Source: Chrysoperla carnea (Eukaryota > Arthropoda > Insecta > Neuroptera > Chrysopidae). From it: a DNA stretch of 64,000 nt. This document shows positions 1,758-59,658 of this stretch, one piece after another. The stretch lies in assembly GCF_905475395.1 (NCBI RefSeq), contig NC_058339.1:80442520-80506519 (forward strand), in the 5' to 3' direction. Position numbers and translations under genes: made by a program. Under the pieces are notes generated by a model, which was not told the DNA's origin, made no database searches, and saw only the letters and a list, made by a program, of their open reading frames with translations. The number at the start of each line of letters is the position of its first letter. Position 1 is the stretch's first letter.

Positions 1758-4700
1758 CTATAATAATAAAACAATGCCAATCATACATCAATCTATATCG
1801 ATGCGATGGAGTTAGGTAGCGATGCACAGCTCTCTCTGTGTTCGCTTTTATTATAACAACAACAAAAAAACCTGTGATTGATTCAATTTCGTGTATAAAC
1901 ATTGAGTAAATTGAGTTATGTACCTCAATAAATATAGGTATGGTACTATACAAATCCGAATATAGTATGTGACCAACCCAACTTGGTCGATTGCTTGCCA
2001 ACTTGGTCGAAGGAATAATATCACCTTGTAATTGGTTTTTTGAACATTCTGCTAAAAAAATTCAAGTGAAGTTTTTTCTCCGGGATTATCTTTATTTGGA
2101 TGCAAGAAATGACTTATGAAAAGTCATTATTCAAAGTCAAATTATTCATGGTTTTTTCAAGCATCTCGTAAACATTTTTATATAAAACAAGAGTAAACAA
2201 ACAATTGCCTGAGTTAATTGTCGAAATACCATGTATGGACAGTGTTGATTACTCTGTCTGATACTATAACTGATATAACCATAACATACATACTATACAA
2301 TTTTGTGCTCTCACGGGTAAACAGTGATGTTTACGAAAAAATGTTGTTTAATATTTTATAAGGAACATTTTTTACATTTAAATTTTTGTTCTATCTCTAA
2401 CGGTTTACAAGATAGGTCCTACGCAGCAAAGACCCAAATGACCTTATGACTCCTTAGAAAAATACGAAAAAATCGAGTTTATTTGGCGATTGGCCGAGTA
2501 ATTTTCGAAAAAAATGATATTTCGGATCGATTGCCGGTATTATCTCGAGAATTATTCGCCCAATCGTTAAATGATACCGATTTTTGTATTTTTTCGGGTC
2601 AAAATTACCTTATATACAGAGTTTTATCGAAATTGGAGACGATAAATTTGTATCGATTTTTTGCAATTTTTTCAAGGGGTACCCCTTAGAAAAAATTCGA
2701 AAAAATCGTAAACAATTATTTGTTTCGGAATTTGATGAAACTCAGTTTATAAGGTAATTTTGACCCAAGAAATTCAAAAATCGAGTTTATTTGGCGATTG
2801 GCTGAGTAATTTTCGAAAAAAATGATATTTCGGATCGATTTCCGGTATTATCTCGAGAATTATTCGCCCAATCGTTAAATGAAACCGATTTTTGTATTTT
2901 TTGCCTCAAAATTACCTTATATACAGAGTTTTATCGAAATTGGAGACGATAAATTTGTATCGATTTTTTGCAATTTTTTCAAGGGGTACCCCTTAGAAAA
3001 AATCGAAAAAATCGTAAAAAATTATTTGTTTCGGAATTTGATGAAACTCAGTTTATAAGGTAATTTTTACCCAAGAAATTCAAAAATCGAGTTTATTTGG
3101 CGATTGGCCGAGTGATTTTCGAAAAAAATGATATTTCGGATCGATTTCCGGTATTATCTCGAGAATTATTCGCCCAATCGTTAAATGAAACCGATTTTTG
3201 TATTTTTTGGGTCAAAATTACCTTATATACAGAGTTTTATCGAAATTGGGGACGATAAATTTGTATCGATTTTTTGCAATTTTTTCAAGGGGTACCCCTT
3301 AGAAAAATTCGAAAAAATCGTAAAAAATTATTTGTTTCGGAATTTGATGAAACTCAGTTTATAAGGTAATTTTGACCCAAGAAATTCAAAAATCGAGTTT
3401 ATTTGGCGATTGGCCGAGTAATTTTCGAAAAAAATGATATTTCGGATCGATTTCCGGTATTATCTCGAGAATTATTCGCCCAATCGTTAAATGAAACCGA
3501 TTTTTGTATTTTTTGCCTCAAAATTACCTTATATACAGAGTTTTATCGAAATTGGAGACGATAAATTTGTATCGATTTTTTGCAATTTTTTCAAGGGGTA
3601 CCCCTTAGAAAAATTCGAAAAAATCGTAAAAAATTATTTGTTTCGGAATTTGATGAAACTCAGTTTATAAGGTAATTTTTACCCAAGAAATTCAAAAATC
3701 GAGTTTATTTGGCGATTGGCCGAGTGATTTTCGAAAAAAATGATATTTCGGATCGATTTCCGGTATTATCTCGAGAATTATTCGCCCAATCGTTAAATGA
3801 AACCGATTTTTGTATTTTTTGCCTCAAAATTACCTTATATACAGAGTTTTATCGAAATTGGAGACGATAAATTTGTATCGATTTTTTGCAATTTTTTCAG
3901 GGGGCACCCCTCACAAAAATTCGAAAAAATCGTAAAAAATTATTTGTTTCGGAATTTGATGAAACTCAGTTTATAAGGTAATTTTGAAAAAAAAAATTAT
4001 AGTTAAAACTAAAATTTAACGTTTTTTGATCGATTTTCAACCGATTTGACATACCTAGGTCCGCCCAAAGCCATATTGCCATATATAATGGGATAAAAAT
4101 AGCTTTTAGTAAAGCATTTGGATGCAAAAATATTTTTGAAATTTTTCTTGATTCTGAGAGATTTCAAATTTTTACGCTTTCAAAGCTTTCCTCCAAGCTC
4201 GTAGGCGTCACCCTAACTATAAGGGTTTACTAACGAATATTCGGACTCTTATAGTAACATATACATCATTCAATTCATAGCTGCGACCAACCTAACTTAA
4301 CCTATACACAAAATCATACAGAGTGGTTTATAAAAAAAAGTGATACACACGATTTATTATGGTTTGTAAATCAAGTACGTTACAGTTTCACAAATAATAA
4401 CAATTGTATGAACCACCAGGTAATAAACTTTATTTCATATCTACGTTGAAATTTTATTTGTTCTATATATATATAATAAATTTAATTACATTAACCAAAA
4501 CAAATAACAATTGAAAATCGAATACAAATATCAAGGGGTGCTTTTACTTCTATTCGGATTGACATGATAACTTGATAATTCGAATTACAATCTTTTTATA
4601 AAAATCAAAATTTGATATATTTTTTTGACCAGGGTAGACAACTTATAAGAATATTGCTACCCTCGAATCTTCTGCTCTATTGTTATCCTCGAAGGACCAC

Positions 4701-26155: not shown

Positions 26156-33281
<7,126 letters not shown>

Positions 33282-34070
33282 TACAACTTACACATACACA
33301 CACTCACAAAATTATGCAAATAATTTAAATTTGTTCTTAGAACGACGTAAAAATAACAAATAACACATTACTGATACATAATAAACGAAGATCTTATATG
33401 ACTTAAGAACTATGTTGGTGTTATCTTCAAAATAGATTGAATATTTACGAGAAGGCACAACTTTTGTAAGGATAATGTAAATATCAGATACATATGGAAC
33501 GTAGAATTGTATCCAAAATTTTAATGTAGAATTCAATCGATTTTATGCACACTTATTTGTAATGTCGTCATTCAAATTAATTTTTGACTTTTTTTTTTAA
33601 CTAATTGTGTTTAACAAACAAAAACAAAAACTTAATTTATGTAGGTATGTGAGTGTTCAATTTGTAATTTTTGGTTATGATGACCAATTCATGACATTAC
33701 TGATGGTCACCTATTTGTTATTACTTTCAAAATAATCACGATTTGTATTTATATCGAATCGAATTAATCGGTACAAATCAACAAAAGTTTCTTTGACCTG
33801 CAGAACACCCTCAATTATACCACTGAACTAAGAATTCTTTCAAAACCTTGGCGACTGCACATAACCAATTACATTTGATAATATATGTTGTCAGACAACT
33901 TCCTACGAAATGGAAACGACTTTGACCATTCGGAACCCCATGGATAATCGAAAAAGTTTCTCAAAATTACGTTTTTCAGTTCTATACATTCTAAAAATGA
34001 TGCATATTTTTACGTTCGGAACAAGAGTTTTTGCCGGAATAATTGCGATGTGGATATAATACCACGCACA

Positions 34071-35325: not shown

Positions 35326-35840
35326 AATTTAAAGAAAATATATTTGTTCAAACTTTTCATCTTTGATGTTCGTTTTTTCGCTACCACCTTTGTGCATACT
35401 ATCGGGGTCAGTAGCTCACTTTTTTGAAACCTATTAAAGGGTTAATTTTGACCACAAATTTGATAAGTATGATCCAAATTTTGTAGAATTATATTGATTT
35501 ATCAAAATTGAATATAATTTTAATGTGCTAGATCAAAATTAAATGCTTTTGATTTTGATGACGTTATTGAGTTAAAAAAAATCGATTTTTTTATAACATA
35601 ATGAAAAAGAACATTTTTGAGTTGAGTATGATCTATACGAGGTCGAGATTTTAATTATGATTGTAAGACCTCTAATTTTTGTAGTACGAATCGTACGGAA
35701 CCCTGTTTTATGCACTTTTTATACAAGTGACATACACTTAACTGATTTTTAAAGGAATAATTCGAATAACTTTAAATCAACTTGTGTTAGTTATTACAAA
35801 AAATTTACATAACGAAAGTTTTTGAGTTTCATAAAGTTTC

Positions 35841-37187
35841 ATGGCAGCTATGTCCACGTTTCCTGAGACAGTGTATATCAAAGAAGAAAGAATTGAAGAA
35901 GAACAGTTACATACGGAATTTATAATTAAGGAAGAACCTACTGAAGAAATATTAGAAGAACCTAGTTTGTCAAGTCATGGTCAAGAAGGATTCAATACCG
36001 AAGAAAAATTCAATCATTTATTTTCACCTAATATAACTACTATAAAAGAAAAACCTTTAACTTGTGATGTTTGTTATAAAATATTTACCCGTTCAGAAAC
36101 TTTAGTTGCACATAAACGAATTCATACCGGAGAAAAGCCATTTTCTTGTAATGTATGTGATAAAAAATTTACTCAACGTCCTCATTTAGTTACTCATTTA
36201 CGAACACATACAGGAGAAAAACGTTTTTCATGTGACATTTGTGATAAAACATATACATCGAAAAGTTGTTTAATCACCCATAAACGACAACATTCTGGAG
36301 AAAGACCATTTTCTTGTGATATTTGTAACAGTACATTTACTAGCCGAAATGTTATGGTTATACATAGAAGAAGTCATACTGGAGAAAAACCCTTTTCATG
36401 TAATTTCTGTGATAAAACATTTACGTGTTCCAGTGGTTTAGTTAAACATAAGCGGATACATGCCGATGAAAAACGACATTCTTGTGATGTTTGTAATAAA
36501 ACTTTCACTACGAATAGCAGTTTAGTTGGACATAAACGGATTCATACCGGGGAAAAACCATTTTCATGTGATATTTGTAAAAGTAAATTTATCAGTCGAT
36601 ATGTTTTAGTTAAACATCAATTAGTTCATACCGGAGAAAAACCATATTCATGTGATCTCTGCGACAAAGCTTTTACCGGCTCAAATAGTCTGGTTAAACA
36701 TAAACGTACTCATACTGGTGAAAAACCGTATTCATGTGTTATTTGTCATAAAAAATTCACCTCACAAAGTCATTTAGGTACACATAAGAGACTTCATACT
36801 GGAGAAAAACCATTTTCCTGTGATATCTGTGATAAAACATTTGTCACAAAAAGTCATTTGGTTTTACATAGACGATTTCATACTGGTGAAAAACCATTTT
36901 CATGTGATGTTTGTGATAGTAAATTCTATCAACACCAACATTTAGTTCAACATAAGCGAATTCATAGTGGGGAAAAACCATATTCGTGTGATTTTTGTGA
37001 TAAAACATTTTCGTTGCAAGGTACTTTAGCTAGGCATAAACAACGTCATACTGGAGAAAAACCATATCCATGTGATACTTGTAATAAAATGTTTTCTCGT
37101 AAAAGCACTTTAGCTCGTCATAAACTTAATCATACTGGAGAAGAACAATTTCAAGGTCTTCTTAGTGACGACCAATACCCAAATTAA
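35841..37187 (+). CDS. C2H2 zinc finger protein with 13 tandem fingers
   Basis: Intronless 448-residue protein. After an acidic 70-residue leader come 13 consecutive C2H2 fingers (first Cys at 75) joined by TGEKP-type linkers with strict 28-residue spacing. All Cys and His ligands are present, so sequence-specific DNA binding in the nucleus is expected. The leader has two IKEE sites (K14, K30) that fit the SUMOylation consensus. There is no ZAD, BTB or KRAB domain. An in-frame TAA at 35832-35834 fixes the start at MAAM unless a 5' exon is spliced on. Finger 5 has a variant linker (ADEKR), and finger 3 uses Tyr (KTYTSK) at the usual Phe. The DNA-contact positions differ between fingers. I cannot assign orthology; families of this type are often lineage-specific. 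Confidence 0.93.
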   Translation: MAAMSTFPETVYIKEERIEEEQLHTEFIIKEEPTEEILEEPSLSSHGQEGFNTEEKFNHLFSPNITTIKEKPLTCDVCYKIFTRSETLVAHKRIHTGEKPFSCNVCDKKFTQRPHLVTHLRTHTGEKRFSCDICDKTYTSKSCLITHKRQHSGERPFSCDICNSTFTSRNVMVIHRRSHTGEKPFSCNFCDKTFTCSSGLVKHKRIHADEKRHSCDVCNKTFTTNSSLVGHKRIHTGEKPFSCDICKSKFISRYVLVKHQLVHTGEKPYSCDLCDKAFTGSNSLVKHKRTHTGEKPYSCVICHKKFTSQSHLGTHKRLHTGEKPFSCDICDKTFVTKSHLVLHRRFHTGEKPFSCDVCDSKFYQHQHLVQHKRIHSGEKPYSCDFCDKTFSLQGTLARHKQRHTGEKPYPCDTCNKMFSRKSTLARHKLNHTGEEQFQGLLSDDQYPN

Positions 37188-40327: not shown

Positions 40328-41659
40328 TTACGCAAAAGGTTCACAAATAATGACCGTATGGTCAAAACTACATGTAACTTTTTTAACATATCCACCAACA
40401 GCCACCTTAAGTGGAAAATATTGATTATTTAAATGACCTAAACCTAAATTACCCGCTGTATTTCGACCCCAAGTATACAAATCACCATTTGTATTAATCG
40501 CGGTCATATAACTTATTCCACAATTAATTTTTCGTACGACACAATCAGTATCAAAACTATTCGAACCGAATAACGTACCCGGTATTTTAGTTGGAATATT
40601 TGATTGCATTACTTCGGGTCCAAGCCCTAATAATCCATATCCCCAGACAAATACTTCACCATTTTCATTTAAAGCCATACAAAAGGAACCACCCGATGCG
40701 ATATCTACAATTTTACCCCATTTTTCATTTACATGAATTGGTGAATTAATTTGTTGAGTTTCGCCGCCGGGTAATTGGCCATATTCGGAATTTCCCCATC
40801 CAAAAACTTCACCCTTTTCACTTAATACTAACACACAATCAGCGGTACACGCAATTTTAATTATACGTTCTCCAGAAATATCTCCATGTACAGCTGAAAA
40901 TGTCGATTGATTGTTAAAATGACCCAAACCAGTTTGGCCGTCAGCACTCCAACCACAAGAATACACTTCCCCATTTTTTGTCAAAATATGAGTATGATCC
41001 TGTCCACATTGTACACTTAGTAGGTCATTCGGATCAAATTGTGGCACTTGATAAATGGTAGCGTTTCCAGAATACTTTTCATCTTCTATAATAGGTCGAC
41101 CACACTGTCCGTAAGCATTATTTCCTAGTGTGAATAATCCTTCATTAGTTAAAACTACCAGATGAGCTCGTCCTGCCGATAAACTCAATACTTTTGCGCT
41201 TTTAGGCGATTTTAAAGGTAAGGGAATCGGTTGAGGTAATAAAATGTAATCTAAAACTTTGTTATTCCGAAGTGTGTGAAAACCTATCTGAGAATCTGTG
41301 TTGATTCCACATCCATACAAGATTGATTCATCATTTTTTGAGTTAACAGCAAATGCCGTGAAACCATACCCACATGTAATGTCTTCAATTTCATTAAGCT
41401 CCGCAAACGTAGAACGTTTTGGGCTTTTTAAGTATTGACATCCTTTTAATCCATTTATTTTAATTCCTAAAGCTCCAGTTTCTGCTCTGCCAAATACATA
41501 AACTCGATTACGTAAAGAACTTTTGGATGTGTATTCAAATGTTGGTAATTCCTCTTCAATATTTGGATTCAATGGAAATTTTCTTTTCGAATGAACATTT
41601 TTACTTAAATTTGGTTTAATACGAAATAATCGTTGCATCCATAATTTATTACTAAACAT
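40328..41659 (-). CDS. RCC1L: RCC1L (WBSCR16), mitochondrial RCC1-like protein
   Basis: Single-exon 443-residue protein (human 464). The first ~35 residues (MFSNKLWMQRLFRIKPNLSK) are basic, lack acidic residues and suit a mitochondrial targeting sequence. Seven RCC1 blades follow, recognisable as YVFGRAETGALG (54-65), LYGCGINTDSQIG, LFTLGNNAYGQCG, VYSCGWSADGQTG, VFGWGNSEYGQLPG, VFVWGYGLLGLGPE and LYTWGRNTAGNLGLG. The blade with VFVWGYG...P.KIPGTLFG and the end DQYFP/NQYFPLKV-type segment are specific to RCC1L rather than RCC1 or HERC proteins. Human RCC1L acts in the matrix as an exchange factor for OPA1 and in mitoribosome assembly. An in-frame TAA at 41687-41689, 30 nt upstream, supports this ATG. 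The lack of introns is unusual compared with vertebrates, but no stop or frameshift is seen. Confidence 0.93.
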   Translation of the reverse strand: MFSNKLWMQRLFRIKPNLSKNVHSKRKFPLNPNIEEELPTFEYTSKSSLRNRVYVFGRAETGALGIKINGLKGCQYLKSPKRSTFAELNEIEDITCGYGFTAFAVNSKNDESILYGCGINTDSQIGFHTLRNNKVLDYILLPQPIPLPLKSPKSAKVLSLSAGRAHLVVLTNEGLFTLGNNAYGQCGRPIIEDEKYSGNATIYQVPQFDPNDLLSVQCGQDHTHILTKNGEVYSCGWSADGQTGLGHFNNQSTFSAVHGDISGERIIKIACTADCVLVLSEKGEVFGWGNSEYGQLPGGETQQINSPIHVNEKWGKIVDIASGGSFCMALNENGEVFVWGYGLLGLGPEVMQSNIPTKIPGTLFGSNSFDTDCVVRKINCGISYMTAINTNGDLYTWGRNTAGNLGLGHLNNQYFPLKVAVGGYVKKVTCSFDHTVIICEPFA

Positions 41660-43243
41660 TATATTAATTTTATCATATCTGATTACTTACGAAATTGAAA
41701 AAGTTTTGAAAAATATTAAAAATGTGCTTTCAATATAAAACTATTATTATACAATTCAAATTTTTGTAATTTAACCTGTCAAATACAAAACAGTTCATTC
41801 CATCATTCATAGATGGACATACTACAATGATGTTTAAAAGAATAATATCGACTATCGTAACTAATTTATATCACAACACAAACTTTTTTAAGGGGTGCTT
41901 ACATTATCCTTTGTGGAATTTGGATGGTTAAAAAAATTGGTTCCCGATTTTTTGGAATTTTCTTAAGGGGGCTAAGAGATTTTGGAATGTTATGAAACTT
42001 GAAATATATGGTAATTTCAATACCAAAAAATACATAAATTAGGTTTAGTCAACGATTCGAGGGAGTACTTGGGATGTCTTTTATTTCGAAACGATTCTGG
42101 AGATATTTTGAAAAATACTCATCTAATCGTAAAATTATCTGAGTGTTAATGTCTTTCGGATTCTTATTAATATAAATAATTCAAAGACACGAACATTTGT
42201 TTGATTGTACATTGAACGATAAGTTTCATTGAAGTATCTATTGAAGAAATTGGCCCAGGTTATCAATATTTATATACGACTTTAATCGATAAATCGTCTT
42301 CATAAATCACTCGTCCAATCTCCAAAAGAGACCGATTTTGATATTTTAAAGGTCAAAATTACTATAGAAAATGATTTTTATCTAAATCGAGGATAAAAAA
42401 TATTTACCGATTTTTTTTATTTTTCTTAAGGGGTGGTATCTTTAATAAATCGTAATTTCGACACATAAATTACAAAAATTAGGTCCAGTCAACGATTGGG
42501 GGAGTAGTTTTTGTGATATCGTCTAAAATTTTGTCTGAAAAACTTTAAGTTCGGAGTGATTTTGGAGATTTCTCGAAAAATATTCATCTAATCGTCAAAT
42601 GATTTGGATTTTTGATCTACTTCGTAGACCTTCGAAACAGTGCACTAGTCTATATTTTCAGATGTAGATGAATTGATATAAGTATTGTGATTGACTTATT
42701 CTTATATGTATAGAAATCGCTGCGCATTGCCAGTAGTATACAAAATAATAAGTAGCTAGGCAACTTATTATACTAATCTCCAATACCTATAACATATCAT
42801 GCGTGCTTCTGTAAATCGTATGCAACAGTGTCTGACAATCAGCAAAGGAAAAGTGAAAAATTGACTTTTGGAATCTACTACCTATAGTGATGTCAATGCA
42901 AAAAAAATTGATTTTTAATCTGTACTCCACACGCAAATTTTATTCTATTTTAATAACTTGAATGTGTAATTTTACTTTTTATGTGCCATATTTTTCGAAT
43001 TTACTTATGATTAATTATTCAGACAAGACCAAATTTAGATAATTTATCAAAATAATCGAAAATTTGTATTTGGTGTCGTCATCAAAATATAAAAACTGAT
43101 TTTTCTCTATCAAACGCAAATTTTATTTAATTTTAATAATCTGAATTTGCGATTCTAATTAACGTAGGTTATATAGTTTCTAAAATCTTAGTTAAATTGT
43201 ACTTAATTTTAAATTGTACATACAAGACCATATTTAGCTTTTA

Positions 43244-44470: not shown

Positions 44471-45882
44471 TTCTTTGCGTATTAACGAAAAGGGTTTCTG
44501 GCAAATAAAAATTATATTATTAAATTATAAAACTAAATGAGTTTAAAATTACAGCCCTATTAAAATGATTTGAAAACATTTTTTTTTTTAGATTAAGACT
44601 GTTGACTCGCTGTGGGCAGAGTGAAAAAAAATTACTTATTTTATTACGCGAAAGAATGACTGTCTTTATCTTGTTATAAATAATTTACTTACGGATAATT
44701 AACATGGAGAGTATAGGAGAGGCTGTGCATTTACTAAGTTTTTTAATTTTAGATAAAAAATAAACCATATTTAAGATATTTTCAAAAAACTAACTGAAAA
44801 TTGATGTATTTGTTCTAAAAAAAAAGAGAAATAGTAACGCAAAGTAAATCAATTTTATTGTTAAACAGAAACAACTATAAATATAGTATTGGTCGTTGAT
44901 GAAAGATGTCACTTTTAATACACCACTTAATACACAATTTTTATAATGAATATTGGGTATTTGTACATCAGCTGGTATATTATAGTTAAAAATTGTACTT
45001 AATTTAATTACAAATTCATATACTATTACCGTGTATATAAATCAAATCAATTTTTACAATGTTGTATTGAGACAACAATCTTAATCTGGCGCGGGGTTAG
45101 CAGGGGAAAAATAATTGCTAAAAGGGCATAAAAATTTTATTAAGAAATTGACTGAAAATGATCTTAAAATCAGCAAATTTTGTAGTTTTTCCGGGAATAA
45201 ACACTTGAAAACTCAGTTAATGCAACCATTCTCTCATTTCAATAAGAAAATTAATACCTAAAATCCATTTAATCTTGAAATCAACTTTTTCGTGACGTTT
45301 CTAGCTCTAATACCATTATCAAAATACATTTTCATGATGTAGATCCATTTTATCTAAATGCATACAATAATATTTGTATTGTTAAACATTTTTATATACA
45401 CACATATTGAATATAAATGACATTACGATATGATGTGATGATGTTCAAATGGGAAAAGTAGTAGCAATATGTAAGTACGTATATTATTATGTAGAGATGA
45501 AGAAGTAAAAAAAAAAGTAGCAGAAAAAGAGGGCAGACAAGTGACTGATGATGAACTGCGAATTGAAGATGACTACGATTTTCAATGAATAATGGTGAAT
45601 GATGGTGATGACGAACCTACTTAACAAGATATTATCATAAATAATGTTCTTTTTTTCTCACCTTTTTCTATGGTAGTTTAAAAAGATTTGTGAAAGAGAG
45701 TTATTCGAAAATATTTCATATTTTTGTAAGTGTAGTTTAAGGTATTTGTAAAGAGTGACACTCGGAATTCCATGATAATAAGTTGTTAAGGAATTTGGGA
45801 AGGAAGATGCTTATCTTTTATACATTCTTGGTTATTTAGTTGAATGGTGATTTAGCAGATCCAACTCAGAGGTTATTTCTTG

Positions 45883-49600: not shown

Positions 49601-52140
49601 TGGTTGGCAAAGAAAAAATATTCGTGCCTTAAAAGGAAATGAAATATACGATTATGAAATAGTAGCTTTGAGATTTTGGAGATTTTTCTAAAATCGAATA
49701 TATTCTCCTTATCTTCTGGTTACATCTTTGATGGCAGGAGACATTTTCAAGAAACAAATTAGAATAGATTAGTTTTTAAAAATTGACAAAACTGTTTATA
49801 ATACACATATATTTCTTGGGAGATCTTAACATTTGTCTTCTGCGAATAAATTAAAATACATTTTTTTTTTTTCAAATTCTTGAGGAAAATCATCACAATT
49901 ATTTTGCTATTAAAACTCAAACTCAAAAATATTCGGTTCACCAACAGATTTCCGTTATATTATGTACTTGCATACGATTTTGACAGAATTTTTAGGATAT
50001 TTTGATCGAATGCCAAACTACAAAATTCGTTGCATTTCCATTATGACGTAATCAATTCCCGGTTATATGATGCGTTAAAAAATACAAAGCACTATGCTTA
50101 TAAAATCTTAATTCAAAATATTAAAAAAAAATATTTTGAAATAAGCTTAATTATTTCAATTAATTTCTTAAAAAGGTACTTTTTAATTAAAAGTAATTAA
50201 TTAATTCATTTAAAATTAATTAGAAATTATTTACAATTTATGTTTGAAAATTTTAGTTTTTGATTTTAAAATAAAAGTTAAATTAAAATTAAATAGATAT
50301 GATATTGAAAAAAATTTAATTTATCGACAAAATTAAATGTACAATATTTACAAAAATATAATAATAAATTTCAAACAGTGACTATTTTTAAAGTTTTCTT
50401 ATTTATCGAATGTTTAATTATATTTTACACATATTAGGTAATTTTTATTTACTTATTTCCAAATAAATATTAATTATTATAGATAAATAAATAATGAATA
50501 ATAATTAAATAAATTAATATTTTTAAAAACTTATACATTTACTTTATTTTTCTCTTTTTTGGTATTTTGTGACTAGAAAACGTTTTCGTTTTTCGATGTG
50601 ATTACAATAGAAAATTCAAAAAAAAAAAATGTTTACAGGTGGTTTTAAAGAGAAGATGGTTTCTGAATTTTGATGTGAAATTAATCAATTTTTAACGAAT
50701 TAAATCGGTAAATTGGAAACCAACGAAAATTTAAGAAAATCATCAGAGTTAAAGCCTTCTTTTAGTGTTGTTTGAAACATTTTGCGAAAAAGTTATTTCT
50801 GTCACCTTCGAATCTATATGTTATTTCGATCTTGTCTTTGGGATTTGCAGTTATTTTGTAGTCCCAATAACTTAAGTGAAAGGAGTGAATAGTGATACAA
50901 AAATTATAAATATAGAAATTAACTATTTTTTTGAAGTGTAAATCAAAAACCTTTTGCGGTAGCTAAAGGGAAAGTTAGTAAAAAAATCCAAAAAGTTTTT
51001 CAAGACACGCCAGCGATATTTACCAGGACAAGCATATACCTTGCAGAAACCTTAGAGGCTGCTAGGAATTTTTAGTTATTTATTTAAGAATTCAGATTTG
51101 TTAATTTACAAAAACACATAGGTAAGTATACTTTATCACTAAAATCGCAAGAGTAAAAATATTCTAAGTATAATGTTATTGTAATAACACTTAGAATGTT
51201 TTAACCGGTGCAATCAGTATTTTTGGTATCTTTCACATTTATGATGCTTAACTTGAAGAAACTTTCTAAAAACTTACGATAATTTTACGACGTTAACTAC
51301 TATTTTTCAATTTTAAGTAATATAGGTACAATAATTTTAAAACCAACCTGTAAAACTAACTATAGGGTGAGTTAAATAAAACAATAGGAAACCATTTTAT
51401 CGTTCAACAGAGAACTAAAGAGTCTTTTACATAATGAAGTGGAGAATAATTTAAATTAAAAAAAAAAAAAATTATTATTGCACACGTTGCCATCATATCC
51501 ATCATACATAGAATAAATAATAATTTTCTATTTTAAAAATCACATTGGCATTTAAAAAATAAAATAAAGTGTATATTAATCGTAATGTTAACGATAAGTA
51601 ACGATGAAATGTGATAATTATACACAATCGAGTTTTCTCTTTCATTGAGATAAAGAGAGATGGCTGATTTATCAAATGTTTCTTTTTTTACATCTTTGCC
51701 TCACATATTATTTTTAATCGATATACAAAATGTCTCCGAATAACTGTTCATTAATTTCAGGAATGATAATCTTTAATAAATAAAATATTCTTAGACTTTT
51801 CCGCTCAACGGTGCAAGTTTTAACTCAACTTGTTAACAACAATTGTATGATAGTTGTAATTTTTCCTCCGCTGACGCTTTTGAACGCTGTAGACGCAATT
51901 AACTATTCTTTAGCACAAGAACTTACGAAGGTCAAAATGTTGATTAAGGGAACATTGCTTTGCTATTCATCAATCTATGAGGTACAGCGCAATTTAACGT
52001 GACACATTTTTACCATTTTCTCAAAAAAATTTTCTCAAATCCATGGAAAAAATTTAAAGTAGATAAAACTTTTTATTTTTAATGTTGATGAAAAACATTT
52101 ATTAATCTTGATCAAAAATTTACGAAAATGGGATTTATTT
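46661..52140. other. Intergenic AT-rich interval
   Basis: Apart from the TIR element at 48726-49288, about 5.5 kb of very AT-rich sequence without recognisable exons, RNA genes or tandem repeats. The frame at 51811-52002 has no ATG start and no family signature. Confidence 0.55.
48726..49288. mobile_element. 563-bp MITE with ~113-bp terminal inverted repeats and TA target site
   Basis: The left end GTAGAAGATCCGAATTAGGG is mirrored by CCCTAATTCGGATCTTCTAC, and TA flanks both sides. The arms extend through TCACCCATCTGTTTACCGAA and AAAGTTATTTTTTATGAAAT to CAATGGGTTGCCTAAAAAA. The interior has no transposase. TA duplication and long TIRs fit a Tc1/mariner-type non-autonomous element. Confidence 0.85.
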
Positions 52141-52146
52141 AAACGT

Positions 52147-52675
52147 ATTAAGGCAAGAGTACAGTTAAAGATGTTACAATTAAAGAAAAATGAAAAAATC
52201 CGCTCGCATTTTGCTTAAACCTGATGGAATGTGTTTTTTAGGTGTCAAATATAAATTTTTATGGCATGCCTTAGTGATGCAAATGTTTCAGTTTGTTAAT
52301 AAACAATAAATTGTTAATTCAATCAAACGATTAATGTTAAAGTTGACTTACAAAATTAATATACAGGCAATTTGAATTACGTATACGTTATACGTGTATG
52401 ATAGTTTTCGATTATTTGACATTTACGTCATAATAGTTGCCTATTTACTAATTTTTTAAGTGAACTTTAACGTCGAACGTTTCATTGAATTAAAAATTTA
52501 TTGTTTATTAACAAATACTAACTTTCGCAACATTAACTCATGCCTTACTAATGATATTTGACACCCAAGAAACACATTCCATGAGGTTTTAGCAAAATGC
52601 GAGCGGTTTCTATCATTTTCCTTTATTAGCCGATTTTTGTAACATTTATTACTGTACTATAAACCTTATGAAGTA
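52147..52675. mobile_element. ~530-bp inverted-repeat MITE downstream of the ETS gene
   Basis: The arms include CCGCTCGCATTTTGC, CTGATGGAATGTGTTTTTTA, GTTAATAAACAATAAATT and GTTAAAGTTGACTTA on the left. Their inverses on the right (GCAAAATGCGAGCGG, CACATTCCATGAGG, AATTTATTGTTTATTAAC, AAGTGAACTTTAAC) carry moderate divergence. The arms are about 200 bp with a spacer of about 85 bp. Confidence 0.75.
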
Positions 52676-52698
52676 TCCTGAAAACCATAATTCGGAAC

Positions 52699-52704
52699 TT
52701 TATT
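52699..52704 (-). promoter_or_regulatory. Probable poly(A) signal of the ETS gene
   Basis: AATAAA on the minus strand about 350 nt beyond the TAA that ends the extended frame and about 470 nt beyond the first TGA stop. Confidence 0.35.
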
Positions 52705-53052
52705 TAGCGAATGAGATTACAGCGGAAAAAATAACAACAATTTTGTTTTGCCACCGATCCATTTTTATAACAAATCGATTGAAATCTTATTAGAAAAATT
52801 TAGATTGAATGATGAAAATTGAGATGGTGGGGGGGGGGCAAGAGGTCAAATCCCAATTGCCTAGACGCCCCCGTTCTTGAAGTCCAGACCTGCTTATAGG
52901 TTAATTCACCTCAGTGTTGATTAACACGAACTTTTATCAAATTTCAATATCACACTTATAATTTAAGAATAGTTATTCCAAGACATCCTGTATCTATTGT
53001 TTCACTTCACTTCTTGCACTTCAAATGAAAATGATTTTCACCCTTGTATTTT

Positions 53053-53175
53053 TTACATATGAATTCGTCGATAACTAGCTGCCGTTGGTGCAGTTACACC
53101 AGTTGCAGCACCCCAATCTTGTGGTGTATGATGTGGTGTAGTCGATACCGTGGCTGAGGGTGATGTACCTACCGG
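53053..53175 (-). CDS. Candidate stop-codon readthrough extension of the ETS factor (40 codons + TAA)
   Basis: Directly after the TGA at 53176-53178 the same frame stays open for 40 codons: PVGTSPSATVSTTPHHTPQD, then WGAATGVTAPTAASYRRIHM, then TAA. Its composition (Ser, Thr, Pro, Ala, His, Gly) continues that of the upstream tail. Its G+C is near 50%, against about 25% just beyond the TAA. The stop context is TGA-C, the leakiest tetranucleotide, although the next codon is CCG rather than the CTA of the strongest motif. Alternatives: an in-frame stop created by sequencing error or mutation, or a GC-rich 3' UTR. No transcript or comparative data were available. Confidence 0.5.
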   Translation of the reverse strand, partial: PVGTSPSATVSTTPHHTPQDWGAATGVTAPTAASYRRIHM

Positions 53176-53333
53176 TCAAGCATAATGTGGATATGAACTT
53201 AACGGTGGTGCTCCTAAATGTGGTCCACCTGGATGATGGCTAATGGAGTGACTAGCTGCTGATGCGGCAATATTTGAATATAAATTCGCACCTGGATTAC
53301 TCCAATATGATGTTGGTGATTGAAATATTGATG
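53176..53333 (-). CDS. Ets65A-like: ETS factor last exon (to first stop)
   Basis: After a CTCTTGTTACAG acceptor it reads [20 protein letters not shown], then [32 protein letters not shown] and [13 protein letters not shown] corresponds to YWNSPTGGIY in vertebrate ERG. The His/Ser/Pro/Ala-rich tail is normal for the insect branch. Confidence 0.9.
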
Positions 53334-56300
53334 CTGTAACAAGAGAAAAATAATTTTTAAGTGTGATTTTAAACATATACAGGTTTATTTTTCGATTGGA
53401 TGAAGTTTCTTAAATTTTGATTGAAATTGCTCCTGAATACCACTTTTTAAAATTTTAGTTGATATCTCAGAAGTTGCTATTTTAATCGTTAAGGGTATTC
53501 ATTTTTTGTTGTTTTCGGATCAATTTATGCTGAGAAAATGATGAAGTTTGAGGAAAAACATTTTCCCCTTTGAAAAAACCGAAAAAAATTACAAACAATT
53601 TTTGTTTTAGAATTTGATAAAATTTAGTGTTTAGGGTACTATGACCCAAAAAAAAAAAAAAATTTGATTATTTTAAGTAGCTTTTGAGAGGTTACCTAAA
53701 ATTCTATGCGAAAAGATTGTATTCTGAAGCAAATCGGGAGATATTTCGAAAAATACTCTAATCTTATCGTCAATTTATATGGATTTTTATGTCTTTTTTG
53801 GTCTTTACTACTCTCGATAATCGTGTTGCCATTGAAGGATGAATTTTTAGTGTTATTTACTGAAATTGTTTCAGGATAAAAATACGCTAGAATACAATTT
53901 TAATCAATATATCTTTGAAACTGCTCGCCCGATCATGAAAAGGAACCAATTTTTTTCTTTTGGATCAAAATCACTTTAGAAAATGATTATTACCTAAATC
54001 GGAAAAAAGTATTTTATAATTCTCTTATATTTTAGTGTCCGATTTTTATAAAATTTGATAAATATTGAATTCAACTCAAAAATTGAGTTCATTTAACGTT
54101 AAGATGCGTAGTTTTTGAGATGTAGCCTACAAACTTATACGAAAAGATTGTAAAGGAGCGATTTTATATAAATTTCGATCTAAACGTGTAAAATGGGAAA
54201 ATTACCCTAAATAATTCGTAGGTATCAAAAGTTGGTTGATTTTGTGATTGGCCGACCAGTTTCTAAGGTATAGAATGAAGAATTTGCTCCATAATATCAA
54301 TCTTTGTTTACGAGTTAGTGTATATTAGTTATTGTTAGTGAGTTTTTGAAGATTTCAAAATCTTTTTTGAAAAATTGCATTTTACCTTTAAACTGCCTCT
54401 ATTATGTATTATAACGTGGGATTGAAAGTTATTTGCCAATTATTAAAAATGGATTCACTCTTACATTGTACTTGAATACTTGGACTACTTAAGATTTTAA
54501 TAAAAAATTGGACCATACACTGCTGCAAATTTATTTGATCAACATAAATTTATGTATTTCATTATCTTTGTACTAGATAATGTACATAATGCAATACACA
54601 ACATAGTTTATGTTGTTATTAAAAGCAATAAACATAAATCTATGTTACAAAATTGATTCACCTCAAAAGAAAGTAATGTGAAATTTATTGCTTGAAAAAC
54701 TATTCTTTTTCTATATTCTATCCCTTTTATAGTTAGATATAATAACGCCCTTATTTACAACATTAGTAAGTTTTATTAATACTATCATTATTACTGCAGT
54801 CATAATAGTAATCATAAAATAAAAATAATGTAATAAAAATTAACTGTTTACTGTGTTTGCTCGAAACATCGAGAAGTGTAGGGGAGAGGCTTGTACTTCG
54901 ATAAAAATTGTTAATAATGCTTTATCTCATATTTAAAAATCAAAAATTCAGTTATAAGAGAAAATATTAAAGAATTTTTCGACAAGTTTACTAAGCCCTT
55001 ATTCTAAACAAAAGTTGCTTTAATGTTGGAACATTATCAAGTTTTTTGAAATTGCATAGACAACTTTTGGCAACTTTTGAATAAATTTATTGAAAACAGA
55101 ATTTTTGAAAAATTCTTTCATACATTCGCTCCGTGCATGAGTTTTATTTCAAGGAGTTATCATAGTAACGACACACTGCTATATTTATATATTTGTATGG
55201 ATGAACATATAAGTCTATGCAATATATACATGTTTTACATATTACATTGAAAATTTTTTCAATAATTTTAATTTGATATTTTTGTTTACCATTTACATAT
55301 AAACAATTGAAAATTAGTTAATAAAACGCTTGATTGATTGCTTTATTTATCGAAAATATCGTAAAATTTTTTTTTTTTGTTTTTTGACATCAATTATTCT
55401 CAAAATTATCGTGTGACAAAAATTTGTCCACAAAAAGACTTACTTATTTTATTAATTTATTTATTTTACTTCTGGAAGCAGATTCAATCGAGGTGGGTTG
55501 TACCTGTGTATAGAAACCAGAAAAAATACAAAATGATATACAAAAATAATATATCAAACTATAAATGTATCAAACAATTTTCAGAGTAAATAGGATAATT
55601 TTCTATTCAAAATTATATAATGAAACCTATCAGATATGTAATATTATTTCCCAGAACGTTTTATACTGAGAACCATCTTTTATTGTGAAAATTAAATCAA
55701 AATTTTCTATAAATATTCATCATAATATTGAAGTGTTTAATAAATATATGTACAGTGATTTCAAGTGATCTAATGTGTTATGCAATTGACACGTGACATA
55801 TGTAATAATAAATATTTATACAGCTTATGTAATCAAAAAGAAATTGCAATATTTTTTGTAAAAATAACAGAAGGGGATTTATTTCTGTTAAAATTTGTTT
55901 TATAAACTTTATTTTCAAGTTTTATTTATAAAAATATCACATTTTTACAAAAAAAAGACTGAATGAATAAAATATGAATTTATTTAGTTTGTTCAAGCAA
56001 GTAACGTTTAATGGGTAACGCTGAAAGCGAATGAACGATAAAACTGTAATTTTAAACTCAATAATCAGGTATTACTTAAATGGTGGAAACGCAGATAAGT
56101 TATACATAACATATACTTAATATATTAAACATACTGTTCACTGCGCCTACACCTTTTCAAGATACTTATTACTATGTGCCTCTACACAATCGCGAAGTAG
56201 CCCGAAGTTGGGCGAGGATCAAGAAATGTGGAGGTGACACTTGTGAAGATTTGTAGCATATTCTCGCGTTGCTTTGCCCAATTTCGCTAAAAAAGCGGGT

Positions 56301-59300: not shown

Positions 59301-59658
59301 ATTTCAAAAACATTAAATGATGTAACTTGAATCTAACTAATGGGCAGTACTCTTTACTGAGCAGTACAAAAGTAGAGCTCAAATATGAAGTCCCGAAGGA
59401 GAGCTAGTACTGTAATACAATAAAAAGGTATAAAGAAAATACAAACCTGATGATGAAGGAATGGCAGCATGTGGTGACATGAATGATGTTAATTTTGCAC
59501 TGTGATGATATGAACTCATAAATAGATCACTTTGATATTTGTACCCTGTTGGATCACTGGATGCTGGTTGTGTGGCAGCAGCTAATCCTTGAAAGTCGAA
59601 TTTATACGCATACCGTTTACCATGTACTTTTGTCATTATGTTTTTGTCATAATAATAC
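53176..59658 (-). CDS. Ets65A-like: ERG/FLI-type ETS transcription factor (3' part; Ets65A-like)
   Basis: The last two coding exons, complement(59447..59658) and (53176..53333), are separated by a 6.1-kb intron and joined in phase (1 nt + 2 nt). Exon 1 begins inside the ETS DNA-binding domain with [20 protein letters not shown], including the tyrosines that follow recognition helix 3, and passes through [11 protein letters not shown]. The conserved ERG/FLI C-terminal region follows ([21 protein letters not shown]; then [16 protein letters not shown]), ending SSYPHYA, where vertebrate ERG ends HLGTYY. Drosophila has two ERG-subgroup genes (Ets65A, Ets21C); the intact C-terminal region favours Ets65A. 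The exon encoding the first half of the ETS domain was not found up to 64 kb and must lie outside. The TGA stop is followed by a long open extension (separate entry). Confidence 0.9.
56135..56300. other. Unexplained GC-richer island in the ETS intron
   Basis: About 165 bp near 50% G+C within DNA of about 20-25% G+C. On the plus strand it reads [20 protein letters not shown], then [19 protein letters not shown] and a stop. The open frame starts 8 codons earlier without an ATG. It also holds two small stems, GCCCGAAGTTGGGC and CGCTAAAAAAGCG. It may be an exon of another gene, a structured RNA or a transposon fragment. I recognise none of these. Confidence 0.25.
58185..58510 (+). repeat. Dispersed repeat family A, internally deleted copy
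   Basis: CACACGGGAAAACAATGATA, CTTTTGTTCTATCTCTTACG and GCGTTACAAACTTGGAACTA are present in family order. The section with the GACGGACGGACGG motif is missing. Confidence 0.65.
59447..59658 (-). CDS. Ets65A-like: ETS factor penultimate exon (second half of ETS domain)
   Basis: The acceptor TTTTTTTTACAG precedes the last base of an arginine codon, then [16 protein letters not shown]. The exon ends AAIPSSS plus one base at a GGTTTGT donor. The boundary falls within the domain at the junction after LSRALR, as is common in ERG-family genes. Confidence 0.92.

Follow-up and report, generated by a model that had tools for sequence, protein, structure and literature searches.

In the lacewing Chrysoperla carnea, an ETS transcription factor gene that is most likely the orthologue of Drosophila Ets65A appears to undergo stop codon readthrough, in which a TGA-C stop is bypassed and a tail of 40 residues, probably disordered, is added to the C terminus; we place the probability of this reading at about 0.78. 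There is an in-frame protein-coding signature between this TGA and a downstream TAA, and none beyond the TAA. A C-terminally extended isoform made by readthrough had been proposed in an earlier, sequence-only reading of this DNA, and both the frame-specific coding score and the annotation of Drosophila Ets65A now support it.

Layout of the locus and identity of the gene

The gene's last exon is found on the minus strand of the window, by which we mean the whole stretch of 64,000 nucleotides that was analyzed. It starts at 53333 behind the acceptor ctcttgttacag|CA, and its coding part, first stop included, covers 53176..53333, with a codon log-odds score of +10.4 over the 51 codons upstream of the TGA. 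The TGA itself (53176..53178) stands directly 3' of SSYPHYA in the context CATTATGCT TGA CCGGTAGGT and has C as its next base; it leads into the candidate readthrough extension of 40 sense codons (PVGTSPSATVSTTPHHTPQDWGAATGVTAPTAASYRRIHM; 53056..53175, minus strand), which a TAA closes at 53053..53055. The succession of SSYPHYA, TGA-C and 40 open codons up to the TAA is thus as the sequence-only reading had described it, and the fall in G+C that it had placed after the TAA is equally real, from 0.51 over the 40 codons of the tail to 0.27 over the next 120 bases. Neither the elevated G+C nor the triplet pattern extends past this second stop. Across 83.9 kb, G+C reaches at least 0.5 in 13 of 8,377 windows of 120 bases (step 10), and six of these 13 start at 53061-53151. 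Two further frames are open across most of the tail stretch, one on the minus strand (53075-53239) and one on the plus strand (53035-53157).

Threonine, alanine, proline and serine together account for 23 of the 40 tail residues, and a search of the last exon with its tail returned no Pfam match. The last exon and the tail each occur at a single place in the assembly, a search for further copies or haplotigs having returned nothing else. The reads reported for inChrCarn1.1 comprise PacBio HiFi at 40-fold and 10X at 147-fold coverage (PMC10116181), and at this depth the TGA is unlikely to be a base error, with the proviso that the assembly analyzed here may be another version.

An upstream exon carrying the second part of the ETS domain (59447..59658, minus strand; acceptor ttttttttacag|G, donor G|gtttgt) ends with PSSS in phase 1 and joins the last exon in that phase, the joins being read from the sequence. 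The first part of the ETS domain falls beyond the window, some 17.5 kb 5' of the TGA (G000:C3:80513149-80513346). When compared with solved structures, the joined domain matched FLI1 (3.3e-64) and ERG (4.7e-64) far better than c-ETS-2 (3.9e-37); the gene belongs to the ERG/FLI class of ETS factors, as the sequence-only reading had recognized. Relatives of the ETS exon were also sought, and the 9 pattern matches in viral contigs and 122 in bacterial or archaeal contigs included none that was confirmed.

The genome encodes at least two ERG-class ETS genes. The second of these (L007) reads FDFHGLMIACQAQ after its ETS domain, and the corresponding residues of the present gene differ. We set the post-domain residues of the present gene against FDFHGLM-ACQAQ; on this comparison L007 presumably corresponds to Drosophila Ets21C and the present gene to Ets65A. 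On this resemblance in the post-domain sequence the gene is a putative Ets65A, as distinct from Ets21C.

Coding signature between the two stops

The evidence that the tail is coding lies in its triplet structure. Of 60 kinase and homeodomain segments of the C. carnea genome, 58 (8,278 codons) served to train a codon model, two with in-frame stops (L036 and L040) being left out, and the triplets of the window plus 20 kb served as its reference. The tail scores +14.9 in frame; shifting the frame gives -22.5 and -23.2, the antisense frames give -19.0, -17.9 and -2.0, and the 40 codons past the TAA give -23.5. Its G+C at the three codon positions is 0.60/0.72/0.20, and its third positions (A 0.425, C 0.05, G 0.15, T 0.375) come close to the values for coding segments of the lacewing (A 0.435, C 0.078, G 0.124, T 0.363). 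Given the overall composition of the tail, so few third-position G and C residues would be expected with a hypergeometric probability of 1.4e-6. The phase pattern is present from the start, at 0.60/0.70/0.25 in the opening 60 bases of the tail and 0.50/0.70/0.25 in the 60 bases astride the TGA. The codon score itself builds unevenly, with a cumulative value of about 0.5 after the thirteenth tail codon and a climb thereafter.

It could be supposed that the tail is merely a G+C-rich stretch of 3' UTR that happens to be open, and open runs of this length are indeed common: a run of 40 open codons follows 645 of the 11,591 background stops. The background here consists of the window plus 20 kb, with the gene's own exons masked and other genes left unmasked. 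None of those 645 runs reached the score of the tail, nor did any of the 5,290 dinucleotide shuffles that stayed open out of 20,000. Together with the in-frame pattern, these counts make an accidental origin very improbable. A tail of 40 open codons is unremarkable, and it is the in-frame triplet pattern that exceeds chance.

We also scored 68 control stops, defined as the first in-frame stop after 30 kinase matches, 30 homeodomain matches and 8 of 11 ETS matches. This set retains the two segments withheld from the codon model and includes the gene's own upstream exon (L006) and the lacewing vvl candidate; its members are not all true gene ends, since many are probably intronic. None of the 68 reached the score of the tail, the highest value being 3.9. 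We gave no weight to an open frame taken by itself: the control tail of greatest length (L002, 68 codons) scored -10.7.

With whole open runs of at least 20 codons as the unit of scoring, 3 of 2,664 background runs attain 14.9. These three, of 450, 452 and 111 codons, are gene-like and by eye resemble zinc finger, RCC1-like and SPRY-like sequences, respectively. Eleven segments of the window score at least 9, comprising the tail, its exon, eight segments that look exon-like by eye (one of them the gene's other exon in the window) and a short run at 45475 of unknown status.

The window contains several other features. A single open C2H2 zinc finger frame of 450 codons occupies 35835-37184 on the plus strand, and a single open RCC1-like frame of 452 codons occupies 40331-41686 on the minus strand, both named by eye. 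A gene with SPRY-like sequence, which by eye we take to resemble RSPRY1, has probable exons spread over 27984-33287 on the minus strand. At 3061-3800 on the plus strand, a stretch coding PKKFKNRVYLAIGRVIFEKNDISDRFPVLSRELFAQSL occurs three times at a spacing of about 300 bases and looks like a tandem repeat.

Proposed readthrough of the TGA and alternative routes to the tail

We hypothesize that most ribosomes would terminate at the TGA and release a protein ending in SSYPHYA, and that in a fraction of ribosomes a near-cognate tRNA would misread the leaky TGA-C, so that translation would continue in frame to the TAA. The readthrough product would gain one residue at the TGA in addition to the 40-residue tail, and some copies of the protein would probably carry this extra tail. 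By analogy with the tail of Drosophila Vvl/Dfr, the lacewing tail would probably tune transcriptional activity or partner binding. The sequence itself shows the layout of the locus, the frame-specific coding signature, the TGA-C context and the lack of a suitable downstream start; translation past the TGA, its rate and the role of the tail are what we infer, and a tail acting like that of Vvl/Dfr would be a further step by analogy.

The stop has the leaky context TGA-C. In Anopheles and Drosophila, a TGA with a 3' C is described as the preferred readthrough context, and among ancient readthrough cases 74-76% use TGA and 55-63% have C as the following base (PMC5100048). The claim of the sequence-only reading that insect readthrough favors TGA-C is in accord with the fly and mosquito data reported in that paper. 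No stable RNA structure was predicted 3' of the TGA (z scores of 0.23 and -0.09). Such a structure is predicted in merely 9-10% of known readthrough cases and is an optional, nondefining feature of readthrough genes. A downstream start as the source of the tail is ruled out, since the sole in-frame ATG within the tail is its last sense codon.

Splicing around the TGA, through a cryptic acceptor 3' of the stop or an exon-internal intron that removes it, would produce the tail without readthrough, an option absent from the sequence-only reading. The previous exon ends in phase 1, which suits four of the tail's five AG sites, and the low codon score of the first 13 tail codons would fit a coding start farther 3'. 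One of the four, a weak candidate acceptor at 53154..53173 on the minus strand (ggtaggtacatcaccctcag|CCACGG, exon start 53153), is in phase and has 8 pyrimidines among 16 positions. As a group, the four compatible sites have 8-9 pyrimidines of 16 and 2-5 T residues, whereas each of the gene's own two acceptors has 14 of 16, with 12 and 14 T residues. The phase match of the AG sites would in any case be expected from A-rich third and G-rich first codon positions, and an acceptor inside the tail would entail the loss of the entire preceding part of the exon. Frame-keeping internal introns are possible in 19 configurations of 60-222 bases (at least 50 bases being required), but none of the 19 products retains SSYPHYA. 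The phase pattern, moreover, runs unbroken across the TGA, and we regard splicing as an unlikely source of the tail.

A recent nonsense change, such as C to T in a CGA codon, could have truncated a once longer C-terminal exon and be fixed or polymorphic in the lineage. A fresh truncation would be expected to leave just such an intact tail, as coding-like as its exon, and a single-genome statistic cannot separate a translated tail from one that has recently lost its translation. The fly protein D-ETS-3 ends in SSYPHYA, vertebrate ERG in HLGTYY and FLI1 in HLGSYY, endings which argue that the TGA is the ancestral end and thus against a nonsense change. The sequence-only reading had ranked readthrough above such a change; that ranking is favored by these family ends and by the Drosophila annotation, but is not proven. 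The stop of Drosophila Ets65A is likewise annotated as read through (PMC4528330), and a TGA followed by C is a readthrough-prone context (PMC5100048), both of which weigh against truncation. We consider a recent nonsense change quite improbable.

Recoding of another kind, by A-to-I editing of the TGA to TGG or by selenocysteine insertion, would also keep the tail coding. Rfam includes SECIS models, and no Rfam family was matched up to an E value of 1 in 51000-53500. A search for an editing duplex found no exact 12-base complement to the region of the TGA in the 8 kb upstream or the 4 kb downstream. Both forms of recoding seem very improbable to us.

Comparison with Drosophila and evolutionary implications

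In D. melanogaster, Crosby et al. (2015, PMC4528330) name two genes, Ets65A and vvl, as apparent cases of triple readthrough. The lacewing gene is probably orthologous to this ERG/FLI-class gene and has, like it, a coding signature past the stop. Unlike the fly gene, with its three successive stops, it shows one extension of 40 codons, then the TAA, and no signal beyond; the comparison concerns gene and stop arrangement.

An experimentally tested precedent comes from Drosophila vvl/dfr. Zhao et al. (2021, PMC8417969) used an antibody, mass spectrometry and mutants to demonstrate readthrough producing a 286-residue tail, and the tail is reported to increase the capacity of Vvl/Dfr to regulate its target genes (PMC8417969). 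Both genes encode a developmental transcription factor and have a C after the stop, with a tail added by readthrough in the fly and probably in the lacewing; they differ in the stop (TGA in the lacewing gene, TAG in the fly gene), the protein family (ETS and POU) and the length of the tail (40 codons and 286 residues). According to the same study, vvl/dfr of three non-dipteran insects has a putative second frame that is short, and readthrough is not predicted there (PMC8417969). The lacewing case also resembles the Anopheles and Drosophila candidates of Jungreis et al. (2016, PMC5100048) in having TGA followed by C and a coding signature between the stops; those candidates were drawn from multispecies alignments (21 species of Anopheles, 20 of Drosophila), whereas ours comes from one genome.

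A literature search for Ets65A readthrough matched PMC4528330, on Drosophila, and among the matches listed no title concerned readthrough of this ETS factor in another insect. The string "Ets" is absent from the main article text of PMC3840789 (ribosome profiling) and from the article text of PMC5100048. Text searches with four family-end peptide strings returned no paper. Within the literature searched, readthrough of Ets65A is known in the fly and no report from Neuroptera was found.

The catalogues in PMC4528330 and PMC5100048 cover Drosophila and Anopheles, and readthrough has been inferred more widely, across insects and crustaceans. With a clear case from Neuroptera, in a gene that is listed for Drosophila, the event would be easier to date and a tail would become available for laboratory tests. 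We see it as an even question whether readthrough of the Ets65A stop predates the split between lacewings and flies, with a leaky stop kept since early holometabolous insects and the length of the tail and the number of stops changing since. The triplet-phase test used here also indicates that a single AT-rich genome can serve to flag readthrough cases without alignments.

The highest-scoring of the 68 control tails (3.9) belongs to the lacewing vvl candidate (L069), which was noticed before its gene was identified and thereby acts as a blind positive control in favor of readthrough. This locus (G000:C1:66623273-66626443) encodes a POU domain and a homeodomain in one frame of 425 residues, is the best of five POU matches, and is presumably the vvl/dfr orthologue. 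Its frame ends with GGHQLAAH, followed by TAG-C as in the fly and then by 22 open codons (HLISWASSNASAAALLSQHDHG), with no signal past the next stop. The signal of this tail is weak, given that 12 of 2,664 background runs of at least 20 codons score equally high (at least 6 of them gene-like) and that its phase test gives a P value of 0.047. With TAG-C kept in the lacewing, readthrough of vvl may be likewise old.

Other POU and homeodomain loci of the lacewing also have open codons after a stop. At a further POU gene (L078, stop at 1978), putatively of class IV, KRMKFAAQH is followed by TGA-C and 17 open codons (PPSPSGMPTEWKYSSGW) with a score of 5.2; a donor-like CAG|GTATGC just 3' of the stop makes splicing an alternative there. 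Two homeodomain loci, L070 and L050, have an in-frame TGA-C and TAG-G, respectively; 18 open codons (score -1.4) lie behind the first stop and 28 (score -0.5) behind the second, and their post-stop sequences are His/Gly- or Asn/Ser-rich.
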